NCBI GenBank assembly: GCA_017547205.1
Contig: JAFYQH010000075.1
Location: forward strand, 1-36,614
DNA length: 36,614 nt
Source: Bacteroidaceae bacterium
GTDB lineage: Bacteria; Bacteroidota; Bacteroidia; Bacteroidales; Bacteroidaceae
Reading direction: 5' to 3'
The notes below the pieces were generated by a model. That model did no database searches and had not been told where the DNA came from. It was given only the letters and a program-made list of their open reading frames with translations. Positions 4,805 to 17,062 of the stretch are shown in pieces. The translations under genes and the position numbers were made by a program. Numbering within the stretch: the stretch's first letter is position 1; each line of letters starts with the position of its first letter.

Positions 4805-6484
4805 TTATGAATACATGAAACGCCTGATGCTCTGCTTCGGGGTTTTCTCAAAGGTCTCGCGGCGAATCTCTGTGTAACCAATCTTGCTGTATGCTGCAAG
4901 TTCCGAGTTCAATGCAAGCACATTGGCATCTATGAGTTTGTTGAGTTCTTCCTCACTCATTCCATCCTTCTTGCCGGCATCGTAATCGGCAACAACAAGG
5001 GCTACAATCGCATTCTTTCGGCCGACAACAAGGGATTCGACAACGTAGGGAAGGTTGTTTATCTTGTCCTCAATCTCCTCGGGATAGATATTCTGCCCGC
5101 TGCCTGTCAATATCATGTTCTTGCAACGGCCCTTTATAAAGAGATTCTTCTTGTTGTCGAATATACCCATATCACCGGTCTTGAGCCAACCGTCCTTTGT
5201 AAAGGCAGCCTTTGTAGCCTCCTCGTTGTTATAGTAACCAAGCATTACAGCATCACCCTTAACCTGTATCTCGCCAAGGACACGGCGAGGATTGGCCGAA
5301 TCGATACGTATCTCTATGGGATGAGCATTGGTTCCGCATGAGTACTTCACATATTCGCTCTTGTCGCGATATGATATGAGCGGACCGCACTCTGTCATGC
5401 CGTAGCCCACAGTGTAAGGGAACTTCATTCGTTTCAGAAGATTCTCCACCTCGCGGTTCAGAGCTGCACCGCCAATGATGACACCAACAGTGAAATTGTT
5501 GCCGAAAGCATTCAGGAGAGATTTCTTTATCTTATTCAATACAATTCTGTCAAGTCCCGGAATCTTAAGCAACAGCTTTGCAGGGAACTTGCGTGTTGCA
5601 GGAAAAACCTTTGACTTGAAAATCTTCTCTATAACCAACGGAACAGTCAGGAACATGAAAGGCTTTACTACAGCAAGACCTCCCAAGAGGCGTGCAGGAG
5701 TCGGCTTACCCGGCATAACGAACACATGACATCCGCTCGACAACGGGAAAAGCACATCAAAAGCCTGACCGAACATGTGGGCCATAGGCAATATTGCAAA
5801 TATATGTCCGCCGACAGCAGAAGGCACTACACGGAAACCGAATTCAAGGTTCACCGACAACGAACGCGCAGGTAGAATGACACCCTTTGACGTTGCACTC
5901 GTAGTGCCCGAAGTGAAGCTTATCTCTACAACATCCTCCATCCCGAAGCTCTCATTGTAATAATTCACCATGTCAGGAGTCAAACCATCCGGGTATTCCG
6001 ATGCAAAAAGAGAATCCAACTTGCCTTCGAGCGAAGAGAGTGAAGTGCCATTGGAATATTCTACACCGAAGTTCCTTACATTGACTATCCCGACAAAGCC
6101 CTTTATCTGCTTCAGCAGGGCAAGACTGTCATCATCGGAAGAAAATGCATTTGCTGCAATGTCATCGACAATAAGCAACTTGCACTCAGAAAAAGAACTC
6201 AACTCTGCTACAGTACCAGGAAGGAAGTCCGGTAAAAACGGAACCGTTACTGCGCCATAAGTCAGCGTTGCATAATATGCTATTACCCACTCAGCCGAGT
6301 TACGCGCATAGAGAGCAACCTTGTCGCCTTTCCCTATGCCCAGCTCCTTAAACAGGATATGATACCTGGCAATCCCTTCGGCCAATTGGGAATATTTGTA
6401 TGTCTCTTTACCAAAATTGGTAAGAGCAGGCAAATCCCAATGACTCTTGACCGAATCATTGAAATAACTTACAAAATGTCTCAT
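4805..6484 (-). CDS. Acyl-CoA synthetase-like AMP-binding protein, paralogue 1
   Basis: A 559-residue ANL-superfamily enzyme. Members adenylate a carboxylic acid and transfer it to CoA or a carrier protein. Visible motifs: A3 phosphate loop at about 191-202 (TSGTTSATSKGV, one residue longer than the usual TSGTTGxPKGV); A5 GYGMTECGP at 360-368; A7 WLKTGDMG near 433-440; A8 GRCKNMILTGSGQNIYPEE near 452-470. The C-terminus ends EKTPKQSIRRFMYS; aligned with the usual PKTxxGKIxR motif, the catalytic A10 lysine position is Ser552. There is no signal peptide or obvious membrane anchor. It is one of four paralogues within 10 kb and is closest to paralogue 2, especially after residue 200. Candidate promoter at 6514-6535. 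The substrate is unknown; a long-chain or branched fatty acid is a guess from family. Confidence 0.85.
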   Translation of the reverse strand: MRHFVSYFNDSVKSHWDLPALTNFGKETYKYSQLAEGIARYHILFKELGIGKGDKVALYARNSAEWVIAYYATLTYGAVTVPFLPDFLPGTVAELSSFSECKLLIVDDIAANAFSSDDDSLALLKQIKGFVGIVNVRNFGVEYSNGTSLSSLEGKLDSLFASEYPDGLTPDMVNYYNESFGMEDVVEISFTSGTTSATSKGVILPARSLSVNLEFGFRVVPSAVGGHIFAILPMAHMFGQAFDVLFPLSSGCHVFVMPGKPTPARLLGGLAVVKPFMFLTVPLVIEKIFKSKVFPATRKFPAKLLLKIPGLDRIVLNKIKKSLLNAFGNNFTVGVIIGGAALNREVENLLKRMKFPYTVGYGMTECGPLISYRDKSEYVKYSCGTNAHPIEIRIDSANPRRVLGEIQVKGDAVMLGYYNNEEATKAAFTKDGWLKTGDMGIFDNKKNLFIKGRCKNMILTGSGQNIYPEEIEDKINNLPYVVESLVVGRKNAIVALVVADYDAGKKDGMSEEELNKLIDANVLALNSELAAYSKIGYTEIRRETFEKTPKQSIRRFMYS

Positions 6485-6513
6485 TTATAGATAGTGTGAT
6501 TGATTTTCCGGAT

Positions 6514-6535
6514 GCAAATATCAACTTTTTTTTTT
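6514..6535 (-). promoter_or_regulatory. Candidate promoter of ligase paralogue 1
   Basis: On the minus strand a run of ten A is followed by GTTGATATTTGCA, close to the -7 form (nAnnTTTG). Paralogue 2 has the same arrangement at about 11153-11173 (A-run, GTTGAACTTTGCA). The conserved block suggests the two genes share a promoter type or were duplicated together with it. Confidence 0.5.
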
Positions 6536-6548
6536 AATCCGCAATAGC

Positions 6549-6579
6549 TTTTGCACAAAACAATGCCAATTGTGCAAAA
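6549..6579. repeat. Inverted repeat in the divergent ligase/propeller intergenic region
   Basis: TTTTGCACAA (6549-6558) and TTGTGCAAAA (6570-6579) form a perfect 10-bp inverted repeat with an 11-nt spacer, between two divergently read genes. It could be an operator or a small hairpin in a leader. No repressor gene is adjacent. Confidence 0.4.
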
Positions 6580-6725
6580 AAATCCTCGGTTTTTCACCTC
6601 GTTTCAATCTATATTTAACTTATCTTAATATAAAAGTCCATCCTAAAGATAAAACATAAATGATTAACAAAAGTTGTTCCCAAGAGTTATATCATACATC
6701 TGCAATTAATATATTTTACATCTGT

Positions 6726-6756
6726 TTTGGCATAATGGAAAAAGAACATAACTTTG
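6726..6756 (+). promoter_or_regulatory. Consensus Bacteroidota promoter of the beta-propeller gene
   Basis: TTTG at 6726-6729 and TAACTTTG at 6749-6756 are separated by 19 nt, the textbook spacing. Transcription would start near 6763, 17 nt before the ATG at 6780. This excludes the longer reading from 6660. Confidence 0.8.
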
Positions 6757-6779
6757 CAGAAATCACGAGGCAAGACAAT

Positions 6780-8375
6780 ATGAAAAAAACTATTTCATTC
6801 ATATCAATTCTACTTGCAGCAGTCATTACAGGAGCTAGTTGTTCTGGAAAAAATAAAGCTGAGAACAAACAAGAATCTGATATAATAACAGACAGTACCT
6901 TTGCTACAATTGAAGAGAAAAAGGAGACAATAACAGCTCTACCCGACACGGCATATGCATCAGCATCACTGCTTAAATACAAAGTGGAGATTATTGACAC
7001 TGTAACCGGGCCGGAAATCGTTGATTTTTCTGACCCATACAACGATTCACCCGGCATATTCACATTCAGGGGAAATACAAGGAGGGATGCCAGCTATGAC
7101 GGCCGTGTTGAAGGCAGGCCGGACACAATCATTGTAGACTGGGAATTCAACACATCAATGACCCCGCCAGATACTACGGCTACAGATTGGGGAGGAGGAA
7201 GCGGCTGGACCGGACAGCCGGTATACGTCAACTGGCCTGACAGCATTGTAAAGAGTCTCAAAGCATCAGGAGTTGTAAACGCAAACTTCAAGAATCATGA
7301 AATAATTGTGGGTTCGCTCTGCCACATGCTCTACTTCATTGACTTGGAGACTGGAAAGCCCTCTCGCCAGGCAATAGATGTCCGCAACCCGATTAAGGGC
7401 TCTGTCTCACTCGACCCCAGCTTGAACGGTAACCTTTACGTCGGACAGGGCGTACCGGTAAACAGGCCCTTCGGGCACCTGGTCATTGACCTCAACAAAG
7501 GCAGGATAAGCAAAACTATCCCCGAGGACCACAAGGCACAGCGCCGTTGGGGAGCATTCGATTCTTCCCCCCTCAAAGTTGACAAGTTCCTGTTCTGGCC
7601 GGGAGAAAACGGAACATTATATAAATACGTATGCAGGAAAGGCGAGATATCACTGCATTCGGCATTGCGATACACACGCAACGGTGTTGCACCAGGCATG
7701 GAAGCATCGATATCGGTATATCGCAATTATGGATATACAGCAGACAACCACGGCAATGTGGTATGTACAAACCTGAATACCCTACGCCCGGTGTGGTGTT
7801 TCGCAAACGGAGATGATACCGACGCAACAGTTGTTGTGTGCGAAGAGGAAGGCAAGCCATACGTGTATACTGGAAACGAAGTTGACCGCAAGCCCGACGG
7901 ACCGGCATACTTCAGAAAGCTTAATGCCCTCACAGGAGAACTGATATGGGAGGCATCTTTACCTGGCAAGAGAGCCGATGTGGGAAACAAACATTTCGAC
8001 GGCGGTTACTATGCCTCACCACTTCCCGGAAAAGGGAACTGCTCGGGACTCATATTCAGCAACTGTGTAGCAAACACGAACAAACAGAACGGAGATTTCA
8101 TTGCAATCGACCGCAAGAACGGAAAAATCGTGTACAGGGTCAGCCTCAAGAATTATTCATGGTCCTCACCCGTCGGATTCTTGAACGAAAAAGATGAGAT
8201 GTTCATCTTCACAGGCGACACCTATGGCAACGCCTACCTCATAAACGGCATTGACGGCAAAGTCCTTTGCAAGAAAAAGGTAGGCAACAACTTTGAATCG
8301 TCACCCGTAGTCATCGGCAATCAGGTTGTTGTAGGCTCACGCGGAAACTCAATATACAAAATGACAATAAGATGA
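6780..8375 (+). CDS. PQQ-type beta-propeller lipoprotein
   Basis: A 531-residue exported lipoprotein. The start at 6780 gives MKKTISFISILLAAVITGASC, a type II signal peptide with the lipidated Cys at 21, and it sits just behind a consensus promoter. A low-complexity E/K/T/D linker follows to about residue 65, then repeated blade segments such as NLYVGQGVPV, GNVVCTNLNTLRPVW, ALTGELIWEASL, and the C-terminal AYLINGIDGKVLCKKKVG and QVVVGSRGNSIYKM. These are PQQ/BamB-like propeller blades, which usually act as a protein- or ligand-binding scaffold; no dehydrogenase PQQ site can be recognised. The stop overlaps the next start (ATGA), so it is translationally coupled to a secreted hydrolase. A joint envelope role is likely; the substrate is unknown. 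Confidence 0.82.
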   Translation: MKKTISFISILLAAVITGASCSGKNKAENKQESDIITDSTFATIEEKKETITALPDTAYASASLLKYKVEIIDTVTGPEIVDFSDPYNDSPGIFTFRGNTRRDASYDGRVEGRPDTIIVDWEFNTSMTPPDTTATDWGGGSGWTGQPVYVNWPDSIVKSLKASGVVNANFKNHEIIVGSLCHMLYFIDLETGKPSRQAIDVRNPIKGSVSLDPSLNGNLYVGQGVPVNRPFGHLVIDLNKGRISKTIPEDHKAQRRWGAFDSSPLKVDKFLFWPGENGTLYKYVCRKGEISLHSALRYTRNGVAPGMEASISVYRNYGYTADNHGNVVCTNLNTLRPVWCFANGDDTDATVVVCEEEGKPYVYTGNEVDRKPDGPAYFRKLNALTGELIWEASLPGKRADVGNKHFDGGYYASPLPGKGNCSGLIFSNCVANTNKQNGDFIAIDRKNGKIVYRVSLKNYSWSSPVGFLNEKDEMFIFTGDTYGNAYLINGIDGKVLCKKKVGNNFESSPVVIGNQVVVGSRGNSIYKMTIR

Positions 8376-9184
8376 GAACGGCAAGAATCATAACTCCCCT
8401 TATTACAGTATTGGCATTGGCCATGTTCACAACATCGGCAGCACAATCCATTGTCGCACACAAGAAGAAAGTTAAGGACGGATATAATTTCTGGTTATAC
8501 ACACCTGAAACCACAAGCGCGCCAAAACCTGCAATAATATTCCTTCATGGTGCAAGCCTGTGCGGAACAAACATGAACAAGGTGCGAAAGTACGGTACGA
8601 TAGATGCCATTGAGAAGGGCAGAATGATAGACGCATATGTTATCGCTCCTCAGAACCCTGGAGGTACATGGAATCCTAACAGAATAATGAATATCCTCGA
8701 ATGGGTAAAGCAGAACAACAATGTGGATTCGACACGAGTATATGTACTTGGAATGAGCCTTGGTGGATATGGCAGTATTGACCTTGCAGCAACACACCCC
8801 AACGAGATTGCTGCAGCCATGGCATTCTGCGGAGGAGGTACGCAAACCGATTACAAAGGACTCACAGAAGTTCCGTTATGGATTGTCCATGGCACAGCGG
8901 ACAAAGCTGTCAGCGTGAAATGTAGCGATGCAGTAGTAGCGGCAATGAAGAAATTCAAGAACGGTACGGACAGACTGCATTATGACAGGCTAAAGGGAGT
9001 AAACCATTCTTTACTTGCACGCATATTCTACATGAAGGAATGCTATGAATGGCTACTGGGACATAGCCTTAACGATGAAAAACGGAAGATACAGCCCAAA
9101 TACGAAATATCGAAGAAAACACTTACAAAGGAGGTGTACCGTGGACTTAGTTCACAAAAGAGACCAGGTCTTATACGAGAATAA
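8372..9184 (+). CDS. Secreted alpha/beta hydrolase (esterase-like)
   Basis: A 270-residue protein with a signal peptide ending near AAQS (residue 26). The alpha/beta-hydrolase triad can be read: nucleophile Ser129 in GMSLGGYGS, Asp177 in HGTADKAV, and His212 in GVNHSLL; the oxyanion strand is IIFLHGAS (56-62). The closest families are the predicted phospholipase/carboxylesterase and PHB-depolymerase-like esterases. It overlaps the propeller gene by 4 nt, which makes an exported enzyme plus scaffold pair. The basic tail of about 45 residues after the last catalytic residue (K/R-rich, ending GLIRE) is unusual. A strong hairpin terminator follows at 9192-9244. The substrate is not predictable; an ester in glycan or lipid is likely. 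Confidence 0.85.
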   Translation: MRTARIITPLITVLALAMFTTSAAQSIVAHKKKVKDGYNFWLYTPETTSAPKPAIIFLHGASLCGTNMNKVRKYGTIDAIEKGRMIDAYVIAPQNPGGTWNPNRIMNILEWVKQNNNVDSTRVYVLGMSLGGYGSIDLAATHPNEIAAAMAFCGGGTQTDYKGLTEVPLWIVHGTADKAVSVKCSDAVVAAMKKFKNGTDRLHYDRLKGVNHSLLARIFYMKECYEWLLGHSLNDEKRKIQPKYEISKKTLTKEVYRGLSSQKRPGLIRE

Positions 9185-9191
9185 GAAACCG

Positions 9192-9244
9192 ATATAACAT
9201 AATCCGGACGCAGGACATTATCCTGCGTCCGGATTATGTTATAT
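9192..9244 (+). terminator. 24-bp perfect-stem hairpin after the hydrolase gene
   Basis: Arms 9192-9215 and 9221-9244 are exact complements (for example AATCCGGACGCAGGA with TCCTGCGTCCGGATT) around a CATTA loop. It ends the plus-strand propeller/hydrolase operon 7 bp past the stop codon. It may also stop read-through of the opposite-strand ligase paralogue 2. Confidence 0.8.
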
Positions 9245-9245
9245 T

Positions 9246-9412
9246 TAACGTGAGTTCGATATAAGCTAAATCAAATCGCGAACCTGTCATCCCGACAGAG
9301 CGTAGCGACGAGGGATCTCAAAAATATCGTAAAATAAGAGATCTCTCACGTACGTTCGAGATGACAAAATACGCTAAATTTTAGTATAAATTCTTATATC
9401 GAACTCACGTTA
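9246..9412. repeat. MITE-like element, copy C, with perfect 20-bp terminal inverted repeats
   Basis: The left end TAACGTGAGTTCGATATAAG (9246-9265) is exactly complementary to 9393-9412. The inside has nested TGTCAT ... ATGACA arms and the core CGACAGAGCGTAGCGACGAG. The core is shared with copies A, B, D and E, but these terminal repeats are different. At 167 bp without an ORF, it is a non-autonomous element. It fills the space between the hydrolase terminator and ligase paralogue 2. Confidence 0.85.
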
Positions 9413-9421
9413 TTTACTGCA

Positions 9422-11101
9422 TCATGAATACATGAAACGTCTGATACTCTGCTTCGGGGTTTTTTCAAAAGGCTCACTACGCATCTCCACATAACCTATC
9501 TTGCTGTATGCCGCAAGTTCCGAGTTCAGCGCAAGCACATTGTTATCGACAAGTTTGTTGAGTTCATCCTCATTCATGCCATCCTTTTTGCCGGCCTCGT
9601 AATCGGCAACCACAAGTGCTACAATCGCATTCTTGCGACCGACAACAAGTGATTCCACCACGTAAGGCAGATTGTTTATCTTGTCCTCAATCTCCTCGGG
9701 ATAGATATTCTGTCCGCTACCGGTCAATATCATGTTCTTGCAACGACCCTTGATAAAGAGGTTCTCCTTATTGTCAAGAATACCCATATCACCGGTCTTG
9801 AGCCAACCGTCCTTTGTAAAGGCTGCCTTTGTTGCCTCTTCATTGTTATAGTAGCCAAGCATTACGGCATCACCCTTAACCTGTATCTCGCCAAGAACAC
9901 GGCGAGGATTGGCTGAATCGATACGCAGTTCAATCGGGTGTGCCTTTGTACCGCATGAGTACTTCACATACTCACTCTTGTCACGATATGAGATGAGAGG
10001 GCCGCATTCAGTCATGCCATAACCGACAACATAAGGGAATTTCATACGCTTGAGCAAATCCTCTACCTCACGGTTAAGGGCAGCACCACCGATAATGAGA
10101 CCAACGGAGAAATTATTTCCGAAAGCATTCAGCAATGCGCGCCTGATCTTGTTGAGTACGATCCTGTCAAGACCTGGTACCTTGAGCAGGAACTTTGCCG
10201 GGAACTTTCGTGTTGCAGGGAATACCTTTGACTTGAATATTTTCTCAACTACCATAGGTACAGTAAGGAACATGAAAGGCTTGACAACGGCCAGACCGCC
10301 CAAAAGACGTGCCGGTGTTGGCTTGCCAGGCATGACGAACACATGACAGCCGCTTGACAATGGGAAAAGGACATCAAATGTCTGGCCGAACATATGGGCC
10401 ATAGGCAGAATAGCAAAAATATGACCACCTGCCGCAACGGGAATCTCCCGCTTTGCGAAATCCAGGTTTACCGACAATGAACGTGCCGGCAACACAACAC
10501 CTTTTGATGACGCACTTGTAGTACCGGAAGTAAAGCTTATTTCAACAACGGCCTCGGGATTCCTCTCCTCCTTATAGAAACTTGCATCATCAACCTTCAG
10601 ACCTTCCGGATACAAGGATTTGAAAGTACTGTCGATATTGTCATGAGCCTTCTTCAATGCAACACCTGTTGAATACGCCACTGAAATATCGGCAACGTTT
10701 ATTATTCCGGCAAAACCGTCAGTCTTTTCAAGGCACGCGATATTTTCCTTATCGCCCTGCAAGCCGGCAATCGCAATATCATCTGCAATAAAGAGCTTGC
10801 ACTCCGAGAATGCCCCAAGTTCGGCTACTGCCGACGGTAGGAAGTCCGGAAGAAAAGGAACCGTAACGGCCTCATAAGTCAAAGTTGCAAAATAGGCAAT
10901 TACCCACTCTGCAGAATTGCGCGCATACAGAGCAACCTTGTCACCCTTTGCAACCCCAGCCGCCCTGAAAAGTATATGGTACTTGGCAATACCTTCGGCA
11001 AGCTGGGCATAAGTATATGTCACGCCGCCGAAGTTGGTAACGGCAGGGAGCTCCCAATTGGACTTCAACGATTCGTTGAAAACACTAACAAAATGTCTCA
11101 T
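9422..11101 (-). CDS. Acyl-CoA synthetase-like AMP-binding protein, paralogue 2
   Basis: 559 residues, with the same ANL architecture as paralogue 1: phosphate loop TSGTTSASSKGV with the extra residue, GYGMTECGP, WLKTGDMG, GRCKNMILTGSGQNIYPEE. The C-terminus ends EKTPKQSIRRFMYS, again with Ser at the A10 lysine position. From about residue 200 to the end it is almost the same as paralogue 1, including long identical stretches, while residues about 95-185 differ strongly. That uneven pattern suggests gene conversion over the C-terminal two-thirds, or selection for a changed region before the phosphate loop. Its promoter block matches that of paralogue 1. It is separated from paralogue 3 by a 342-bp AT-rich gap with a terminator. 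Confidence 0.85.
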   Translation of the reverse strand: MRHFVSVFNESLKSNWELPAVTNFGGVTYTYAQLAEGIAKYHILFRAAGVAKGDKVALYARNSAEWVIAYFATLTYEAVTVPFLPDFLPSAVAELGAFSECKLFIADDIAIAGLQGDKENIACLEKTDGFAGIINVADISVAYSTGVALKKAHDNIDSTFKSLYPEGLKVDDASFYKEERNPEAVVEISFTSGTTSASSKGVVLPARSLSVNLDFAKREIPVAAGGHIFAILPMAHMFGQTFDVLFPLSSGCHVFVMPGKPTPARLLGGLAVVKPFMFLTVPMVVEKIFKSKVFPATRKFPAKFLLKVPGLDRIVLNKIRRALLNAFGNNFSVGLIIGGAALNREVEDLLKRMKFPYVVGYGMTECGPLISYRDKSEYVKYSCGTKAHPIELRIDSANPRRVLGEIQVKGDAVMLGYYNNEEATKAAFTKDGWLKTGDMGILDNKENLFIKGRCKNMILTGSGQNIYPEEIEDKINNLPYVVESLVVGRKNAIVALVVADYEAGKKDGMNEDELNKLVDNNVLALNSELAAYSKIGYVEMRSEPFEKTPKQSIRRFMYS

Positions 11102-11152
11102 GGTTGTATTGTTTATTCATTATAATCCAAATACCGGAAAGAATCCGACTTT

Positions 11153-11173
11153 GCAAAGTTCAACTTTTTTTTT
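11153..11173 (-). promoter_or_regulatory. Candidate promoter of ligase paralogue 2
   Basis: The minus strand reads an A-run, then GTTGAACTTTGCA, matching the block upstream of paralogue 1 (GTTGATATTTGCA). The AACTTTG resembles the -7 box. No clear -33 box is visible. The rest of the 11102-11443 gap is AT-rich with one terminator (11385-11412); I see no gene in it. Confidence 0.5.
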
Positions 11174-11384
11174 CTAAAAAGTTAACAATTAGCAGTGATT
11201 AACCACAAACATACATTTTATTGTCAAATTTTGTACATTTAAAACAATATTTTAACACATCTTTACAAATAAAATATAAACTTTTATGATAAGAACTATA
11301 TACTATCATTCTAATAGATACGCAACAAAACTATTGAACACAAAACATTTCCATTACATCATGCAAGAATTTATAGATAAAAAA

Positions 11385-11412
11385 CTTGGACATTCCCAAA
11401 GAGAATGTCCAA
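11385..11412 (-). terminator. Rho-independent terminator of the ligase paralogue 4-3 operon
   Basis: CTTGGACATTC (11385-11395) pairs exactly with GAATGTCCAAG (11402-11412) across a 6-nt loop. On the minus strand it is followed by TTTTTTATC, a good U-tract. It lies about 30 bp past the stop of paralogue 3. Confidence 0.85.
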
Positions 11413-11443
11413 GACCGGAAAATCAATCAACTTCTAAAAGTAT

Positions 11444-13117
11444 TTATTTATACATGAAACGTTTTATGCTCAATTTCGGTGTCTTCTCAAACGGTTCATT
11501 GCGCAATTCACAAATAGTAAGCTTGCTATAGACAGGAAGTTTCTCATTGAGTGCAAACAGGTTCTCTTCCATCACCTTCTGAAGCTCTTCACCATTCAAA
11601 CCAGCAGCCTGTACCTCATCTGGGTTAGGAACCACAAGTGCGGCAAGACCATGCTTGCGTCCCACCACGAGCGACTCGGCAACCATAGGAAGCTGGTTTA
11701 CCAGATCCTCAATTTCCTCGGGATATACATTCTGTCCGTTTGCCGTAAGAATCATATTCTTGCAACGGCCTTTTATATATATATTCTCGTCCTTATCCAT
11801 AAGTCCCATATCGCCGGTTTTGAGCCATCCGTCATCGGTGAATGTTGCTTTTGTAGCTTCTTCGTTTTTGTAGTAACCAACCATCACGGAATCACCCTTT
11901 GCCTGTATCTCACCTGGCACTTTAGCCGGATTTTCTGAATCTATACGTATCTCCACACCTGGATGTGCCACAGCGCCGCATGAACGCATTACGAAATCCT
12001 GCCATCTTCTATAGCTAAGGAGCGGACCACACTCAGTCATTCCATAACCCACAGTATAAGGAAGTTTCATCTTCTTCATAAGAGTCTCAACCTCCTTGTT
12101 CAAAGCTGCACCACCCAGAATAATACCACCTTTTGTTACATTTCCACCAAAAGTAGCCACAAGTTTCGCGCAAACCTTTTTATAAATTACATTCTTTATT
12201 CCAGGTATATACAGCAGTACACGCATCATTGGTTTCTTAAGCTGAGGCATCACCCTTGCACGGAAAATTTTCTCAATCAGCAACGGCACAGTAAGGAACA
12301 TGTACGGTTTAACCTCGGCCAATGCCTTGAGCAGGCGCGCAGGTATAGGCTTCTCTGTAAAAATACTTATATGGCAACCACATGTGAAAGGATATACAAA
12401 ATCAAAAATCTGCCCGAATATGTGTGCCAAAGGAAGGATTGAGAGAATTCTGTCACCAGCAACGGTAGGTATGTGGGTACGGGCATACTCCACATTTGAT
12501 GAAATCGAGCGTGACGTAAGCATTACACCCTTGGGCGAACTGCTTGTGCCTGACGTATAGCTTATAACTCCAAGATTATCGAAATTTGTCTTTGCATAAT
12601 CGACGCGCTTTGCCGTCACACCATTAGGGAAACGTGTGGCAAAAGCCTTTTCAACCTCTTCGCTTATACCATCGAGCTTACCATTGCAATTCTCATGCAC
12701 CTCAAGCCCTACGATATCAACAAGACCGCAGAAATCGGCAAAACCTGAGAATTGAGAAACTATATTGTCTCGCTTGAGAGCTGCAAGAATATTCTTGTCA
12801 AGCAAAAGCAGGCGACTATCGGAAAGCCTTGTCAAATCAGCAATATTCTGCGGAAGGAAATCGGGCAGAAGAGGCACACACACGGCATCATAAGTAACGA
12901 CTGCAAGATAGGCCACACACCACTCCGCACAGTTCTTTGCACAGAGAGCCACCTTTTCACCCTTTGCTATTCCGCATTTTTCGAACAGGACATGCATCCT
13001 CTCAATCTCGGATGCCACAACACCATAAGTCAATGTATTCGCTCCATAGTTGCTCAAAGCAGGACGATTCCAATTGGCTTTGATAGATTCATCAATGTAA
13101 GACAAATAGTGTTTCAT
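11444..13117 (-). CDS. Acyl-CoA synthetase-like AMP-binding protein, paralogue 3
   Basis: 557 residues. The phosphate loop is TSGTSSSPKGV, the normal 11-residue form with P-K-G-V, unlike paralogues 1 and 2. GYGMTECGPLLS, WLKTGDMG and GRCKNMILTANGQNVYPEEIE (A5, A7, A8) are present. The C-terminus ends EKTPKLSIKRFMYK with Ser at the A10 lysine position. It lies 32 bp behind paralogue 4 on the same strand and is closed by a strong terminator, so 4 and 3 form a two-gene operon. Paralogues 3 and 4 share subgroup features (S-S-S-P-K-G-V, I-F-T-E-K-P-x-P-A-R-L-L-K-A-L) that separate them from 1 and 2. Cytoplasmic, with no transmembrane segment evident. Carboxylic acid substrate unknown. Confidence 0.85.
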   Translation of the reverse strand: MKHYLSYIDESIKANWNRPALSNYGANTLTYGVVASEIERMHVLFEKCGIAKGEKVALCAKNCAEWCVAYLAVVTYDAVCVPLLPDFLPQNIADLTRLSDSRLLLLDKNILAALKRDNIVSQFSGFADFCGLVDIVGLEVHENCNGKLDGISEEVEKAFATRFPNGVTAKRVDYAKTNFDNLGVISYTSGTSSSPKGVMLTSRSISSNVEYARTHIPTVAGDRILSILPLAHIFGQIFDFVYPFTCGCHISIFTEKPIPARLLKALAEVKPYMFLTVPLLIEKIFRARVMPQLKKPMMRVLLYIPGIKNVIYKKVCAKLVATFGGNVTKGGIILGGAALNKEVETLMKKMKLPYTVGYGMTECGPLLSYRRWQDFVMRSCGAVAHPGVEIRIDSENPAKVPGEIQAKGDSVMVGYYKNEEATKATFTDDGWLKTGDMGLMDKDENIYIKGRCKNMILTANGQNVYPEEIEDLVNQLPMVAESLVVGRKHGLAALVVPNPDEVQAAGLNGEELQKVMEENLFALNEKLPVYSKLTICELRNEPFEKTPKLSIKRFMYK

Positions 13118-13149
13118 AACTTTATTATAAATAAATAGTATATATACAA

Positions 13150-14829
13150 TTAGTTATACATAAATCTCTTGATACTTAGCTTAGGCGTCTTCTCGAATGG
13201 CTCACGACGTAGTTCACAACGTCCTAACTGGCTATATGAAGGCAGTTTGGCATTAAGCGCGAAGACCTTCTCCTCAATTACAGCTTGAAGTTTAACATCA
13301 TCAATTCCATCTTTTTTTGCTGAATCATAATCAGCTACAATCAAAGCAACCAAGGCATGCTTGCGACCTACGACCAATGACTCAAGTACATAAGGCTGCT
13401 GGTTTATAAGCTCCTCAATCTCTTCGGGATATATATTCTGACCACTGCCTGTCAGAATCATATTCTTGCAGCGACCCTTTATATATACAGTACCATTGCG
13501 GTCCTGTATACCCATATCACCGGTTTTCATCCACCCGTCAGCTGTAAAGGCCGCGTTTGTAGCTTCCTCATTCTTATAATAACCTATTGTAACGACATCA
13601 CCGCGCACCTGTATCTCACCTGGCACTTTGGATGGCTTGTCTGAATCAATGCGCAACTCCAAATTTGGCTTTGCAACACCTCCTATATCATCGATTGAGG
13701 GGTGAGCGGAAGCAACATAGCTTATCAGCGGACCACACTCGGTCATGCCATATCCTACTGCGTATGGAATCCTTATCTTTTTCATTACCTTGTCTACGTC
13801 CTTGCTGATTGCAGCACCACCTATGAAGAAACCAGCCTTGCCCAGGTTACCACCGAACGTTTCAAGAATAGTAGAGCGCACTTTGTTATATATCAGTCTT
13901 CTAACACCCGGTATCTGTGTCAGAAACTTGACTGCCGGCTTACGCAATGCAGGAATTACCTTTGAACGGAAAATCTTCTCTACCAACAAAGGAACTGTAA
14001 GGAATATGAAAGGCTTTACATCGGACAAAGCCTTTAACAGACGTGCCGGAGCCGGTTTCTCTGTAAATATATTTACATGACAACCCGCCGAGAAGAGGAA
14101 AAGAAAGTCAAATGCCAGGCCGAAAATGTGTGCTAAAGGCAATATGGACAACGTAGCCCCGGGATCTGAAACTGCTACCGGAACCAACACTCGAGCCAAC
14201 TCAACATTTCCTGATAATGAACGCGATGACAGCATTACCCCCTTGGGAGAACTGCTTGTACCCGAGGTATAGCTTATAACAGCCAAATCATCAAGAGCAC
14301 CATGGTTCAACTTGAAGTCCTTTGCATTGATACCAGTGGCGAACAATAATGAGTACTTATTATCAATATAATCATTCGCAACTTCATTTAAAGCATCACA
14401 ACCAATTATAACATTACGCTTTACAATATCAATAACACCCAATAAACCATTCATTGAGGCCAATTCATCAAGGAGATTATCCTTTTTTAAAGAATTGAGG
14501 ATATTGCCATCAACAAGCATCAAACGGCTGTCTGACAACTTGGTAAGATTCACAATATTCTCCGGCAGAAAATCAGCCAAGAGGGGGACAGCAACCGCTC
14601 CATATGAAGTTATTGAAATAAATGCAATACACCATTCAGCAGAATTGCGTGCACATATGACTACGTGGTCACCTTTATTTATACCACACTTCTCAAAAAA
14701 CAGATGCCATTTATATATCCCCTCAGCAACTCCGGCATTGGTGTAGGTTTCTGCTCCATAATTTGAAATGGCAGGCCTTGACCAGTTGGCCTTTACAGAC
14801 TCTTCGATGTATTCAATGAAGTGCTTCAT
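13150..14829 (-). CDS. Acyl-CoA synthetase-like AMP-binding protein, paralogue 4
   Basis: 559 residues and first gene of the two-gene operon with paralogue 3. Motifs: TSGTSSSPKGV phosphate loop, GYGMTECGPLIS, WMKTGDMG, GRCKNMILTGSGQNIYPEE, and the C-terminal EKTPKLSIKRFMYN with Ser at the A10 lysine position. After the A5 motif it has the divergent segment YVASAHPSIDDIGGV where the other copies have Y-R-x-W/K-x-x-x, so the region near the substrate or CoA site differs. It is somewhat more A/T-rich and uses more Asn/Lys/Ile in residues 100-165 than its siblings. A weak candidate -7 box (GAAATTTGC) lies at 14892-14900 on the minus strand. Confidence 0.85.
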   Translation of the reverse strand: MKHFIEYIEESVKANWSRPAISNYGAETYTNAGVAEGIYKWHLFFEKCGINKGDHVVICARNSAEWCIAFISITSYGAVAVPLLADFLPENIVNLTKLSDSRLMLVDGNILNSLKKDNLLDELASMNGLLGVIDIVKRNVIIGCDALNEVANDYIDNKYSLLFATGINAKDFKLNHGALDDLAVISYTSGTSSSPKGVMLSSRSLSGNVELARVLVPVAVSDPGATLSILPLAHIFGLAFDFLFLFSAGCHVNIFTEKPAPARLLKALSDVKPFIFLTVPLLVEKIFRSKVIPALRKPAVKFLTQIPGVRRLIYNKVRSTILETFGGNLGKAGFFIGGAAISKDVDKVMKKIRIPYAVGYGMTECGPLISYVASAHPSIDDIGGVAKPNLELRIDSDKPSKVPGEIQVRGDVVTIGYYKNEEATNAAFTADGWMKTGDMGIQDRNGTVYIKGRCKNMILTGSGQNIYPEEIEELINQQPYVLESLVVGRKHALVALIVADYDSAKKDGIDDVKLQAVIEEKVFALNAKLPSYSQLGRCELRREPFEKTPKLSIKRFMYN

Positions 14830-15286: not shown

Positions 15287-17062
15287 ATGGGAAGAGAAAT
15301 TAAATTCAGTCTGGTCTATCGCGACATGTACCAGTCTTCAGGCAAATTCCAGCCACTCGCAGAACAACTCGAGAGGATAGCCCCAACAATAATTGAAATG
15401 GGCTGCTTTGCACGCGTTGAGACAAACGGAGGTGCGTTCGAACAGGTAAACCTGATGGCAGGAGAAAATCCAAACCAAGCAGTAAGGCGTTTTACAAAGG
15501 CATTCAATGAGGCCGGAATACAGACACACATGCTTGACAGGGCGTTAAACGCATTGAGAATGTTCCCAGTGCCGGCAGATGTGAGAAGACTTATGTACAA
15601 GGTAAAGAAAGCCCAGGGTGTAGACATCACACGTATCTTCTGCGGACTTAACGACACGCGCAACATAATACCTTCTATAAAATATGCGCTTGAAGCCGGG
15701 ATGATACCACAGGCAACCCTCTGTATCACATCCTCACCCATACACACAGTAGAGTACTACAGCAACATCGCAGACGAACTCATCGCTGCTGGAGCTACCG
15801 AGATATGCCTCAAGGACATGGCAGGAATAGGACGCCCCGACTTTCTCGGACGCCTCACGAAGAGCATAAAGGAGAAGCATCCCGAAATAATAATCCAATA
15901 CCATGGCCATAGTGGTCCGGGACTATCAATGGCATCCATTCTCGAGGTGTGCAAGAACGGTTGCGACATAATAGACACAGCCATCGAGCCATTGTCATGG
16001 GGAAAGGTACATCCGGATATCATAAGTGTTCAAGCAATGCTTAAGGATGCAGGGTTCAATGTCCCGGAAATCAACATGAACGCATATATGAAAGCGCGAA
16101 GCCTTACTCAAGAGTTCATTGATGATTGGCTTGGTATTTTCATGGACAAGAACAACAAGCTCATGAGCTCATTACTGCTTACCAGCGGACTCCCAGGCGG
16201 AATGATGGGTTCAATGATGTCCGATCTTGCAGGTGTACACAAAGGCATAAACGGAATACTCCAGAGCAAAGGAAAACCGACATACACCCTTGATGAGCTT
16301 ATGGTAGAACTTTTCAATGAAGTAGCATATGTATGGCCGCGCGTAGGCTATCCCCCACTGGTTACTCCGTTCAGCCAATATGTTAAGAACATAGCACTCA
16401 TGAATCTGCTTTCACGTGCACAGGATGAGCCACGCTTCAGCCGCATGGACGAGAGCATGTGGGGCATGATTCTTGGCAAGAGCGGACGTCTGCCGGGCGA
16501 TGTAGCACCCGAAATAAAGGAACTTGCCAAGGAAAAGGGATACGAATTTACCACTGCTGACCCGCAAAGTTTCTACCCCGACGCTCTGGAAGGGTTCCGC
16601 AAGGAGATGCAGGACCTTGGATGGGATACCGGCCAGGACGATGAAGAGTTATGGGAATTTGCAATGCATGAGCGCCAATACCGCGACTACAAGAGTGGTG
16701 TTGCCAAAGAGCGTTTCCTTGCAGACATAGAAAAAGCCAAAGATGCCGAAATGGCAAGCAAAGGCGTGAGCCTTGAAGAAATAAAGGCTATAAAGCATGC
16801 AAAAGCAGACCCGATTATCGCACCCGAAAAAGGGCAGATTGTTTGGGAGGTTGCTGTAGAAGGCGAATCAATGCCACCGGCAATAGGGAGCCATGTCAAT
16901 GCCGACGAGGTGTTCTGCACCATAATCACACCATGGGGACAACTGCAACCCGTTGCCACAGGCCTCGGAGGGCGTGTAATTGAAATATGCGCAAAGCAGG
17001 GTGACAGAGTAAATCGCGGAGAGGTTATAGCATACGTTCAACGCGACGAACTCTTTAATTGA
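15287..17062 (+). CDS. Oxaloacetate decarboxylase / pyruvate carboxylase subunit B-like carboxyltransferase without biotinyl lysine
   Basis: 591 residues. The N-terminal TIM-barrel carboxyltransferase domain keeps its metal and catalytic residues: R12-D13 with Q16-S17, the carbamylatable lysine K176 in EICLKDMAGIG, and the H206-G-H208 pair in QYHGHSGPG. A PYC_OADA-type middle domain follows (GGMMGSMMSDL, near 310-320). The C-terminal 85 residues have the fold pattern of a biotin carrier domain (IAPEKGQIVWEV ... GRVIEICAKQGDRVNRGEVIAYV). However, the hallmark A-M-K-M turn is replaced by I-T-P-W-G at about 547-551, so the biotinylated lysine is absent. It may act with a separate biotin carrier, or have changed function. 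It ends in a 44-bp palindromic terminator. Standing alone, it is not an oadAB operon. Confidence 0.8.
   Translation: MGREIKFSLVYRDMYQSSGKFQPLAEQLERIAPTIIEMGCFARVETNGGAFEQVNLMAGENPNQAVRRFTKAFNEAGIQTHMLDRALNALRMFPVPADVRRLMYKVKKAQGVDITRIFCGLNDTRNIIPSIKYALEAGMIPQATLCITSSPIHTVEYYSNIADELIAAGATEICLKDMAGIGRPDFLGRLTKSIKEKHPEIIIQYHGHSGPGLSMASILEVCKNGCDIIDTAIEPLSWGKVHPDIISVQAMLKDAGFNVPEINMNAYMKARSLTQEFIDDWLGIFMDKNNKLMSSLLLTSGLPGGMMGSMMSDLAGVHKGINGILQSKGKPTYTLDELMVELFNEVAYVWPRVGYPPLVTPFSQYVKNIALMNLLSRAQDEPRFSRMDESMWGMILGKSGRLPGDVAPEIKELAKEKGYEFTTADPQSFYPDALEGFRKEMQDLGWDTGQDDEELWEFAMHERQYRDYKSGVAKERFLADIEKAKDAEMASKGVSLEEIKAIKHAKADPIIAPEKGQIVWEVAVEGESMPPAIGSHVNADEVFCTIITPWGQLQPVATGLGGRVIEICAKQGDRVNRGEVIAYVQRDELFN

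Follow-up and report, generated by a model that had tools for sequence, protein, structure and literature searches.

Introduction

Across 374 ANL sequences of nine groups, the lysine of motif A10 was reported to be invariant (PMC6122825). As described in the same report, in a luciferase structure this lysine coordinates the alpha-phosphate, and in CBL it is close to the carboxylate; its replacement by alanine costs FadD13 96% of its activity and lowers the kcat/Km of CBL 500-fold (Clark et al. 2018, PMC6122825). It is also the residue that cells are described as acetylating to switch such enzymes off (PMC11255334). Here, we examine a window of 36,614 nucleotides, the whole stretch of DNA analysed (contig JAFYQH010000075.1 of assembly GCA_017547205.1, from a Bacteroidaceae bacterium), in which four genes for AMP-binding (ANL) ligases carry Ser in place of the A10 lysine. 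They share the absence of this lysine, and a non-varying lysine two residues earlier, with an entire clade of relatives. As judged from the sequences, the A10 lysine has probably moved two residues towards the N-terminus, and the members of the clade would be working fatty acid:CoA or fatty acid:acyl carrier protein (acyl-ACP) ligases.

The closest enzymes for which activities have been described may be the two acyl-ACP synthetases of Alistipes finegoldii, a species of the same order, AfAas1 (C12) and AfAas2 (C18:1), which load fatty acids onto ACP, are active in vitro and are blocked by an acyl-AMP mimic (PMC10522932). Synthetases of this type (AasS/Aas) are, according to that report, recognised by assay and not by sequence (PMC10522932). 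The locus tags given for AfAas1 and AfAas2 are Alfi_2635 and Alfi_0371, respectively (PMC9386255).

Ligase genes lacking the A10 lysine

In all four copies, scores exceed the curated cut-offs of two Pfam families, PF00501 (AMP-binding) and PF23562 (AMP-binding_C_3). The genes and the codons of interest are listed below, each ligase being assigned by its open reading frame (ORF), these two Pfam matches and alignment.

4805..6484, minus strand: ligase copy 1, AMP-binding (ANL), 559 aa
4829..4837, minus strand: copy 1 codons for K550 (4835-4837), Q551 and S552 (4829-4831), from translation and alignment to the sister clade with Lys552
9422..11101, minus strand: ligase copy 2, 559 aa
9446..9454, minus strand: copy 2 codons for K550 to S552, from translation, numbered as in copy 1
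11444..13117, minus strand: ligase copy 3, 557 aa, with an A3 loop of normal length
11468..11476, minus strand: copy 3 codons for K548 to S550 (alignment positions 550 to 552), from translation and alignment
13150..14829, minus strand: ligase copy 4, 559 aa, with an A3 loop of normal length
13174..13182, minus strand: copy 4 codons for K550 to S552, from translation

The tails read EKTPKQSIRRFMY in two copies and EKTPKLSIKRFMY in the other two, with Ser at the position of the A10 lysine in each case. Identity with copy 1 is 81% for copy 2, 52% for copy 3 and 51% for copy 4. All four copies retain intact motifs A5 (YGMTE), A7 (KTGD) and A8 (GRCK...GQN.YPEEIE), and A3 was found in each, as the earlier sequence-only reading of this DNA had claimed, with the refinement that the A3 loop of copies 1 and 2 is one residue longer (TSGTTSATSKG or TSGTTSASSKG, residues ~191-201). 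As judged by these features, the proteins have the two domains of the ANL superfamily together with its A3 P-loop, A5 Thr-Glu, A7 Asp and A8 Arg, and lack the A10 lysine at its usual place.

In NCBIfam, none of the curated cut-offs was reached by any of the copies among the 25 best matches of each, the best being PRK06187, with 196.5-228.8 bits where 476 are required. The source genome includes five AMP-binding matches, namely the four copies and one FadD15/ACSL-type gene (L001) that keeps the lysine (tail STMKVVR); however, the assembly is 83% complete and in 83 contigs, and further AMP-binding genes may be missing. The four copies fall outside the FadD15/ACSL-type group, in which A10 takes the form TxKxKR, and lie in another clade on the tree described below.

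Positions 550 and 552 across relatives

A total of 266 ANL ORFs were collected, and removal of 16 duplicates, three open-ended and two short sequences left 245 distinct rows for alignment. Sequences scoring >570 bits against the clade profile (177 rows) were taken as members of the clade that includes the window copies. The remaining 68 rows include its sister clade, here called K-type, which has EKTPTQKIKRYLY and similar tails and occurs both in Bacteroidales and in other parts of the phylum. The K-type proteins are the closest to the clade on the tree, are of similar length and have the same tail flanks, but carry a normal K552, with Thr at 550 in 37 of 37 representatives and Ser there in two later rows.

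The residues at positions 550 and 552 were Lys/Ser in 173 of the 245 rows, Lys/Asn in four, Thr/Lys in 64, Ser/Lys in two, and Leu/Lys and Val/Lys in one each. Thus, K550 accompanies Ser or Asn at 552 in 177 of 177 clade rows, and K552 occurs without K550 in all 68 others; no row is without lysine at both positions. By sequence, K550 aligns two residues before the A10 position. The gap pattern of the tail is identical in 237 of the 245 rows, which have no insertion or deletion relative to one another, and the flanks F-x-K-T before and I-K/R-R after this site are common to the clade and its Lys552 relatives. Because of this single gap pattern and the two common flanks, the Ser that the sequence-only reading had placed at the A10 position of the four copies is, on the evidence of the alignment, no slip, and chance is excluded as its source because the pattern is conserved across relatives.

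Distinct rows read later agreed with this pattern, adding 16 with Lys/Ser (8 + 8) and 14 with K552 (6 + 8, the latter eight being Thr/Lys); of the 19 Lys/Ser rows in one batch, 11 had already been counted among the 245, and a K552 row in it was repeated. The exceptions among these later rows were one fragment and L248, in which the ORF ends early. The Lys/Ser tail was also present in five of the five plasmid-collection records from Bacteroides and Parabacteroides that were read. Genes of the clade and of the K-type occur together in one genome in several cases (e.g. G319 and G403).

Origin and age of the change

A maximum-likelihood tree of 128 rows (representatives at <72% identity plus the window rows) was obtained by a short search with the tail columns left out. 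All 71 rows with K550 were placed on one side of a branch with a Shimodaira-Hasegawa approximate likelihood ratio test (SH-aLRT) support of 100, and the loss of K552 needs one change. Exchanges between Ser and Asn at 552 add four changes on the tree, one of which is forced by well-supported branches. Asn is found at 552 in four of the 71 clade representatives, these rows branching close to the clade's base, in a part of the tree with modest support.

The codons retain further information. For S552, 60 of 67 rows use an AGY codon, a class that accounts for 37% of all Ser codons in these genes (837/2274); five further columns have Ser in 60 rows or more, and there TCN predominates. This is consistent with a path from Lys (AAR) via Asn (AAY) to Ser (AGY) in single-base steps. 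The replacement of Thr (ACR) by Lys (AAR) at 550 is also one base step, and K550 would have arisen first or at about the same time as K552 was lost.

The ratio of non-synonymous to synonymous substitution rates (dN/dS) was 0.04-0.11 in the three window copies with a close counterpart at another locus (L006) that passed the filter, a rough estimate given dS of 0.73-2.2. By these ratios, the three copies are kept by purifying selection. Taken with the one change on the tree, the comparison indicates that the lysine change is old and of single origin, and upholds the proposal of the sequence-only reading that the loss in all four copies reflects one ancestral change and not decay.

Conservation of the active site and probable role of K550

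The 71 clade representatives were compared with 37 rows of the K-type sister clade. K550 is present in 71 of 71 clade rows and in none of the 37 sisters, and K552 in none of the former and all of the latter. Within the clade, K550 shows no change, and no Arg was seen there, while 19 changes were counted at 551, four at 552 and seven, all to Arg, at K554. No changes were found at T364 and E365 (A5), D438 (A7), or R453 and K455 (A8), and only one at K200 (A3). Four lysines reach 90% or more both in the clade and in its sisters, namely K200 (69/71 in the clade; 37/37 in the sisters), K287 (71; 37), K455 (71; 36) and K547 (70; 35), and R555 is invariant or near-invariant in the clade and present in 37 of 37 sisters. 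Five columns, 239, 366, 372, 550 and 552, are fixed differently between the two clades at cut-offs of 90% and 85%. At the first three, the clade has Gly in the A4 region, Cys after YGMTE and Tyr, where the sisters mostly have Glu239, Thr366 and Gly372. Thus, as far as residues can tell, ATP handling looks kept and one loop lysine has become fixed in the clade.

A moved A10 lysine would account for these observations as follows. The clade enzymes would convert a fatty acid and ATP to acyl-AMP, and this to acyl-CoA or acyl-ACP. As the sequences show, Lys552 was replaced once by Asn or Ser, in a clade where Thr550 became a non-varying Lys. K550, lying on the same C-terminal loop, would then reach into the active site when the enzyme adopts the adenylation conformation, taking over the binding of the carboxylate and the alpha-phosphate, and the small polar Ser or Asn at 552 would make room for it. 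A nearby lysine is to be expected if the enzymes adenylate, because alanine mutants of the A10 lysine are reported to lose activity (PMC6122825). The enzymes may supply membrane lipid synthesis by activating or recycling fatty acids that are either exogenous or released, with CoA or ACP as the acceptor.

The absence of lysine from the A10 position in 177 of 177 clade rows could also mean that adenylation was lost, leaving proteins that perform only the thioester half-reaction, hydrolyse acyl-AMP, or sense acyl groups or ATP. A non-adenylating protein would not, however, need all of T364, E365, D438, R453, K455 and K200, of which only the last has changed, and then once, among the 71 rows. The appearance of a new invariant lysine in the same loop also speaks against such a loss, as does the possibility that a clade member is one of the two A. 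finegoldii acyl-ACP synthetases reported to be active (PMC10522932), and we regard a loss of adenylation as improbable. Alternatively, adenylation may have been kept with K550 incidental to it, the A10 lysine being replaced by K547, K554, R555, a residue of the N-terminal domain or the changed site formed by G239, C366 and Y372. The protein is indeed altered beyond the lysine pair, as columns 239, 366 and 372 are also fixed differently, and K547 and R555 vary little or not at all among clade members. Yet these two residues are about equally conserved in the K552 sisters (35/37 and 37/37), which points to another role that they already had, K554 was replaced by Arg seven times, and K550 alone is both new and invariant; this explanation therefore seems unlikely to us. 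Finally, a lysine two residues away in a loop of a kind that shifts easily might be the normal A10 lysine of ordinary enzymes, misaligned through an indel. The one gap pattern in 237 of 245 rows and the shared flanks would then call for two compensating events, which makes this a very remote prospect, and one that functionally merges with a moved lysine.

Among the three options that the sequence-only reading had left standing, the use of the neighbouring K550 is thus the best supported, as this residue is invariant and occurs in exactly the rows lacking K552, while thioester-only chemistry and an acyl sensor are disfavoured by the conservation of the ATP-handling residues.

Several points nevertheless weigh against a moved lysine. 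The reach of a side chain at position -2 into the active site is something that we infer from sequence. In the PDB, no chain of the clade was found, the best match to the clade profile scoring 187 bits as compared with >570 for members, and the nearest solved chains are 4-coumarate:CoA ligases. None of the 245 rows has Lys at both 550 and 552, as an intermediate might. Only one event took place, so that the match between the two positions is without replication and only the later invariance is replicated. K200 is Arg in two of the 71 clade rows, and the A3 loop is longer in two of the window copies; the latter insertion is present in 29 of the 177 clade rows (22 sources, the window among them), and Ser before the A3 Lys-Gly is frequent in relatives (60 of the 148 clade rows lacking the insertion). 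The sister clade keeps lysines 322 and 554 at 90% or more, as compared with only 38 and 61 of the 71 clade rows, respectively, and because of these and the changed columns 239, 366 and 372 the site may differ in further respects. Lastly, the clade ORF of L248 (150-1883, minus strand, on a contig of Bacteroides reticulotermitis) stops at EKTS, before K550; the expected tail KRSIKRYLY continues in a different frame, which indicates a frameshift, either real or a draft or assembly error.

Distribution of the clade

In a scan of public genomes, the best 77 loci of 578 relatives were from Bacteroidales or Bacteroidetes, as far as titles tell. Among genomes sampled from the family of the window, 60 of 61 had a match at E<=1e-50. 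In the sample of its order (198 genomes), 117 had a match at E<=1e-120 and 81 had none. The best match reached E<=1e-170, a range that proved to hold clade members where sequences were read, in 92 of the 198, so not every genome has one, and 25 of the 198 had only weaker matches, in a range that proved K-type where read. Matches at 1e-90 were found in seven of 198 genomes of the class sample, six of these from the window's own order, and matches at E<=1e-60 in 133 of 247 genomes of the phylum sample. In the Alistipes-like genus, 166 of 180 genomes had a best match at E<=1e-200. The tallies for the order and for this genus were counted by hand from the match tables, and the sequences read were from 39 chosen places among the order-sample matches, one from the class sample, 20 from the phylum sample and 15 from a further scan.

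Clade tails were read in Bacteroides, Parabacteroides, Alistipes, Butyricimonas, Prevotella and other gut genera. The clade also reaches beyond the order, with one member in another class (L116) and one in Persicobacter of the Cytophagales (L163), both with Asn552. The clade is centred on Bacteroidales.

Gene array and neighbouring genes

The 81 loci that include clade genes hold 130 such genes, 129 with Lys/Ser and one with Lys/Asn. Counted in 5-kb steps, one copy is present at 55 loci, two at seven, three at 15 and four at four, although contig ends and the 8-kb flanks may hide further copies. Three or four copies thus occur at 19 of the 81 loci, the window included, and these 19 are relatives of the window's subgroup. 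The four copies may serve distinct acids, as the sequence-only reading proposed; two of them form the pair with 81% identity.

No gene neighbourhood was conserved across the 81 loci, most of which have single clade genes with varying neighbours. The features next to or within the array in the window are as follows.

6660..9184, plus strand: two inverted genes inside the array, for a beta-propeller/PQQ-like protein and an alpha/beta hydrolase, from Pfam
15287-17062, plus strand: OadA/PycB-like carboxyltransferase, 591 aa, from PF02436 and PF00682

The commonest neighbour family is the OadA/PycB-like one, found at 17 loci and beside the array in most of them, namely the window, 15 of its close relatives and L060, where the gene is not adjacent. 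By eye, the C-terminal biotinyl-like domain of the window protein is without the AMKM motif of biotinylation. Of the loci compared, the window and L006 are the only two in which the inverted pair lies within the array, and it is probably not part of the ligase system. A hypothetical protein of ~382-416 aa is encoded downstream of the clade gene at eight loci (e.g. L166 and L290), mostly from Bacteroides and Phocaeicola, and the one member searched had no Pfam match. A check for beta-oxidation in the source genome gave one acyl-CoA dehydrogenase match, which decides nothing.

Significance

A clade found in gut Bacteroidales genera lacks a lysine that was invariant in the 374-sequence survey (PMC6122825), and has another lysine two residues away. 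If K550 does the work, the clade amounts to a natural experiment on the relocation of a catalytic residue, whose probable path (Thr to Lys at one position; Lys to Asn to Ser at the other) is still readable in the codons. The K550/S552 tail offers a way to recognise one family among the many genes of gut Bacteroidales annotated as 'AMP-binding protein', and it cautions against labelling members of the clade as dead enzymes.

Comparison with known systems

The clade shares the two-domain architecture and the A3, A5, A7 and A8 residues of ANL acyl-CoA ligases such as the long-chain acyl-CoA synthetases and 4-coumarate:CoA ligase. It differs in that those enzymes keep the A10 lysine, where the clade has Ser or Asn and an invariant lysine two residues earlier.

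A catalytic lysine at another place than in related enzymes, with activity kept, is known from the WNK kinases, which differ in fold and chemistry from the ligases, so that the likeness is an analogy only. No title or abstract reporting a shifted A10 lysine was found in the open-licence literature, to which this weak absence is limited. We tentatively suggest that a relocation of the WNK kind has been fixed in the clade, with active synthetases whose site has been rebuilt (K550, S/N552, G239, C366 and Y372). If this is true, the loss of the lysine that is otherwise acetylated may let the enzymes escape acetylation control, or change it.

The comparison with A. finegoldii is based on eight genomes of the Alistipes genus, hand-chosen from 180, mostly for size, and belonging to the genus group of L046 (titled Alistipes). 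Each of the eight has one clade member and one K-type gene, and six of the eight have a FadD15-type gene. Two of these three kinds of ligase likely correspond to Aas1 and Aas2, and one of the two is likely the clade member, an assignment to AfAas1 or AfAas2 that is plausible because each of the eight genomes has one clade member and one K-type gene. Relative to dnaA, the K-type gene of G834 lies at ~+0.49 Mb and the clade gene at ~-0.79 Mb. On the assumption that the locus tags start at dnaA and number ~3300 in total, Alfi_0371 would be expected at ~+0.42 Mb and Alfi_2635 at ~-0.75 Mb. A presumed SulA/Kbl pair is in the opposite order in G834, and the positions in G746 fit less well. The gene positions in G834 are suggestive only, and would make Aas2 the K-type enzyme and Aas1 the clade member. 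In comparison with AfAas1 and AfAas2, the ligases of the window belong to another subgroup and are encoded in a tandem array.

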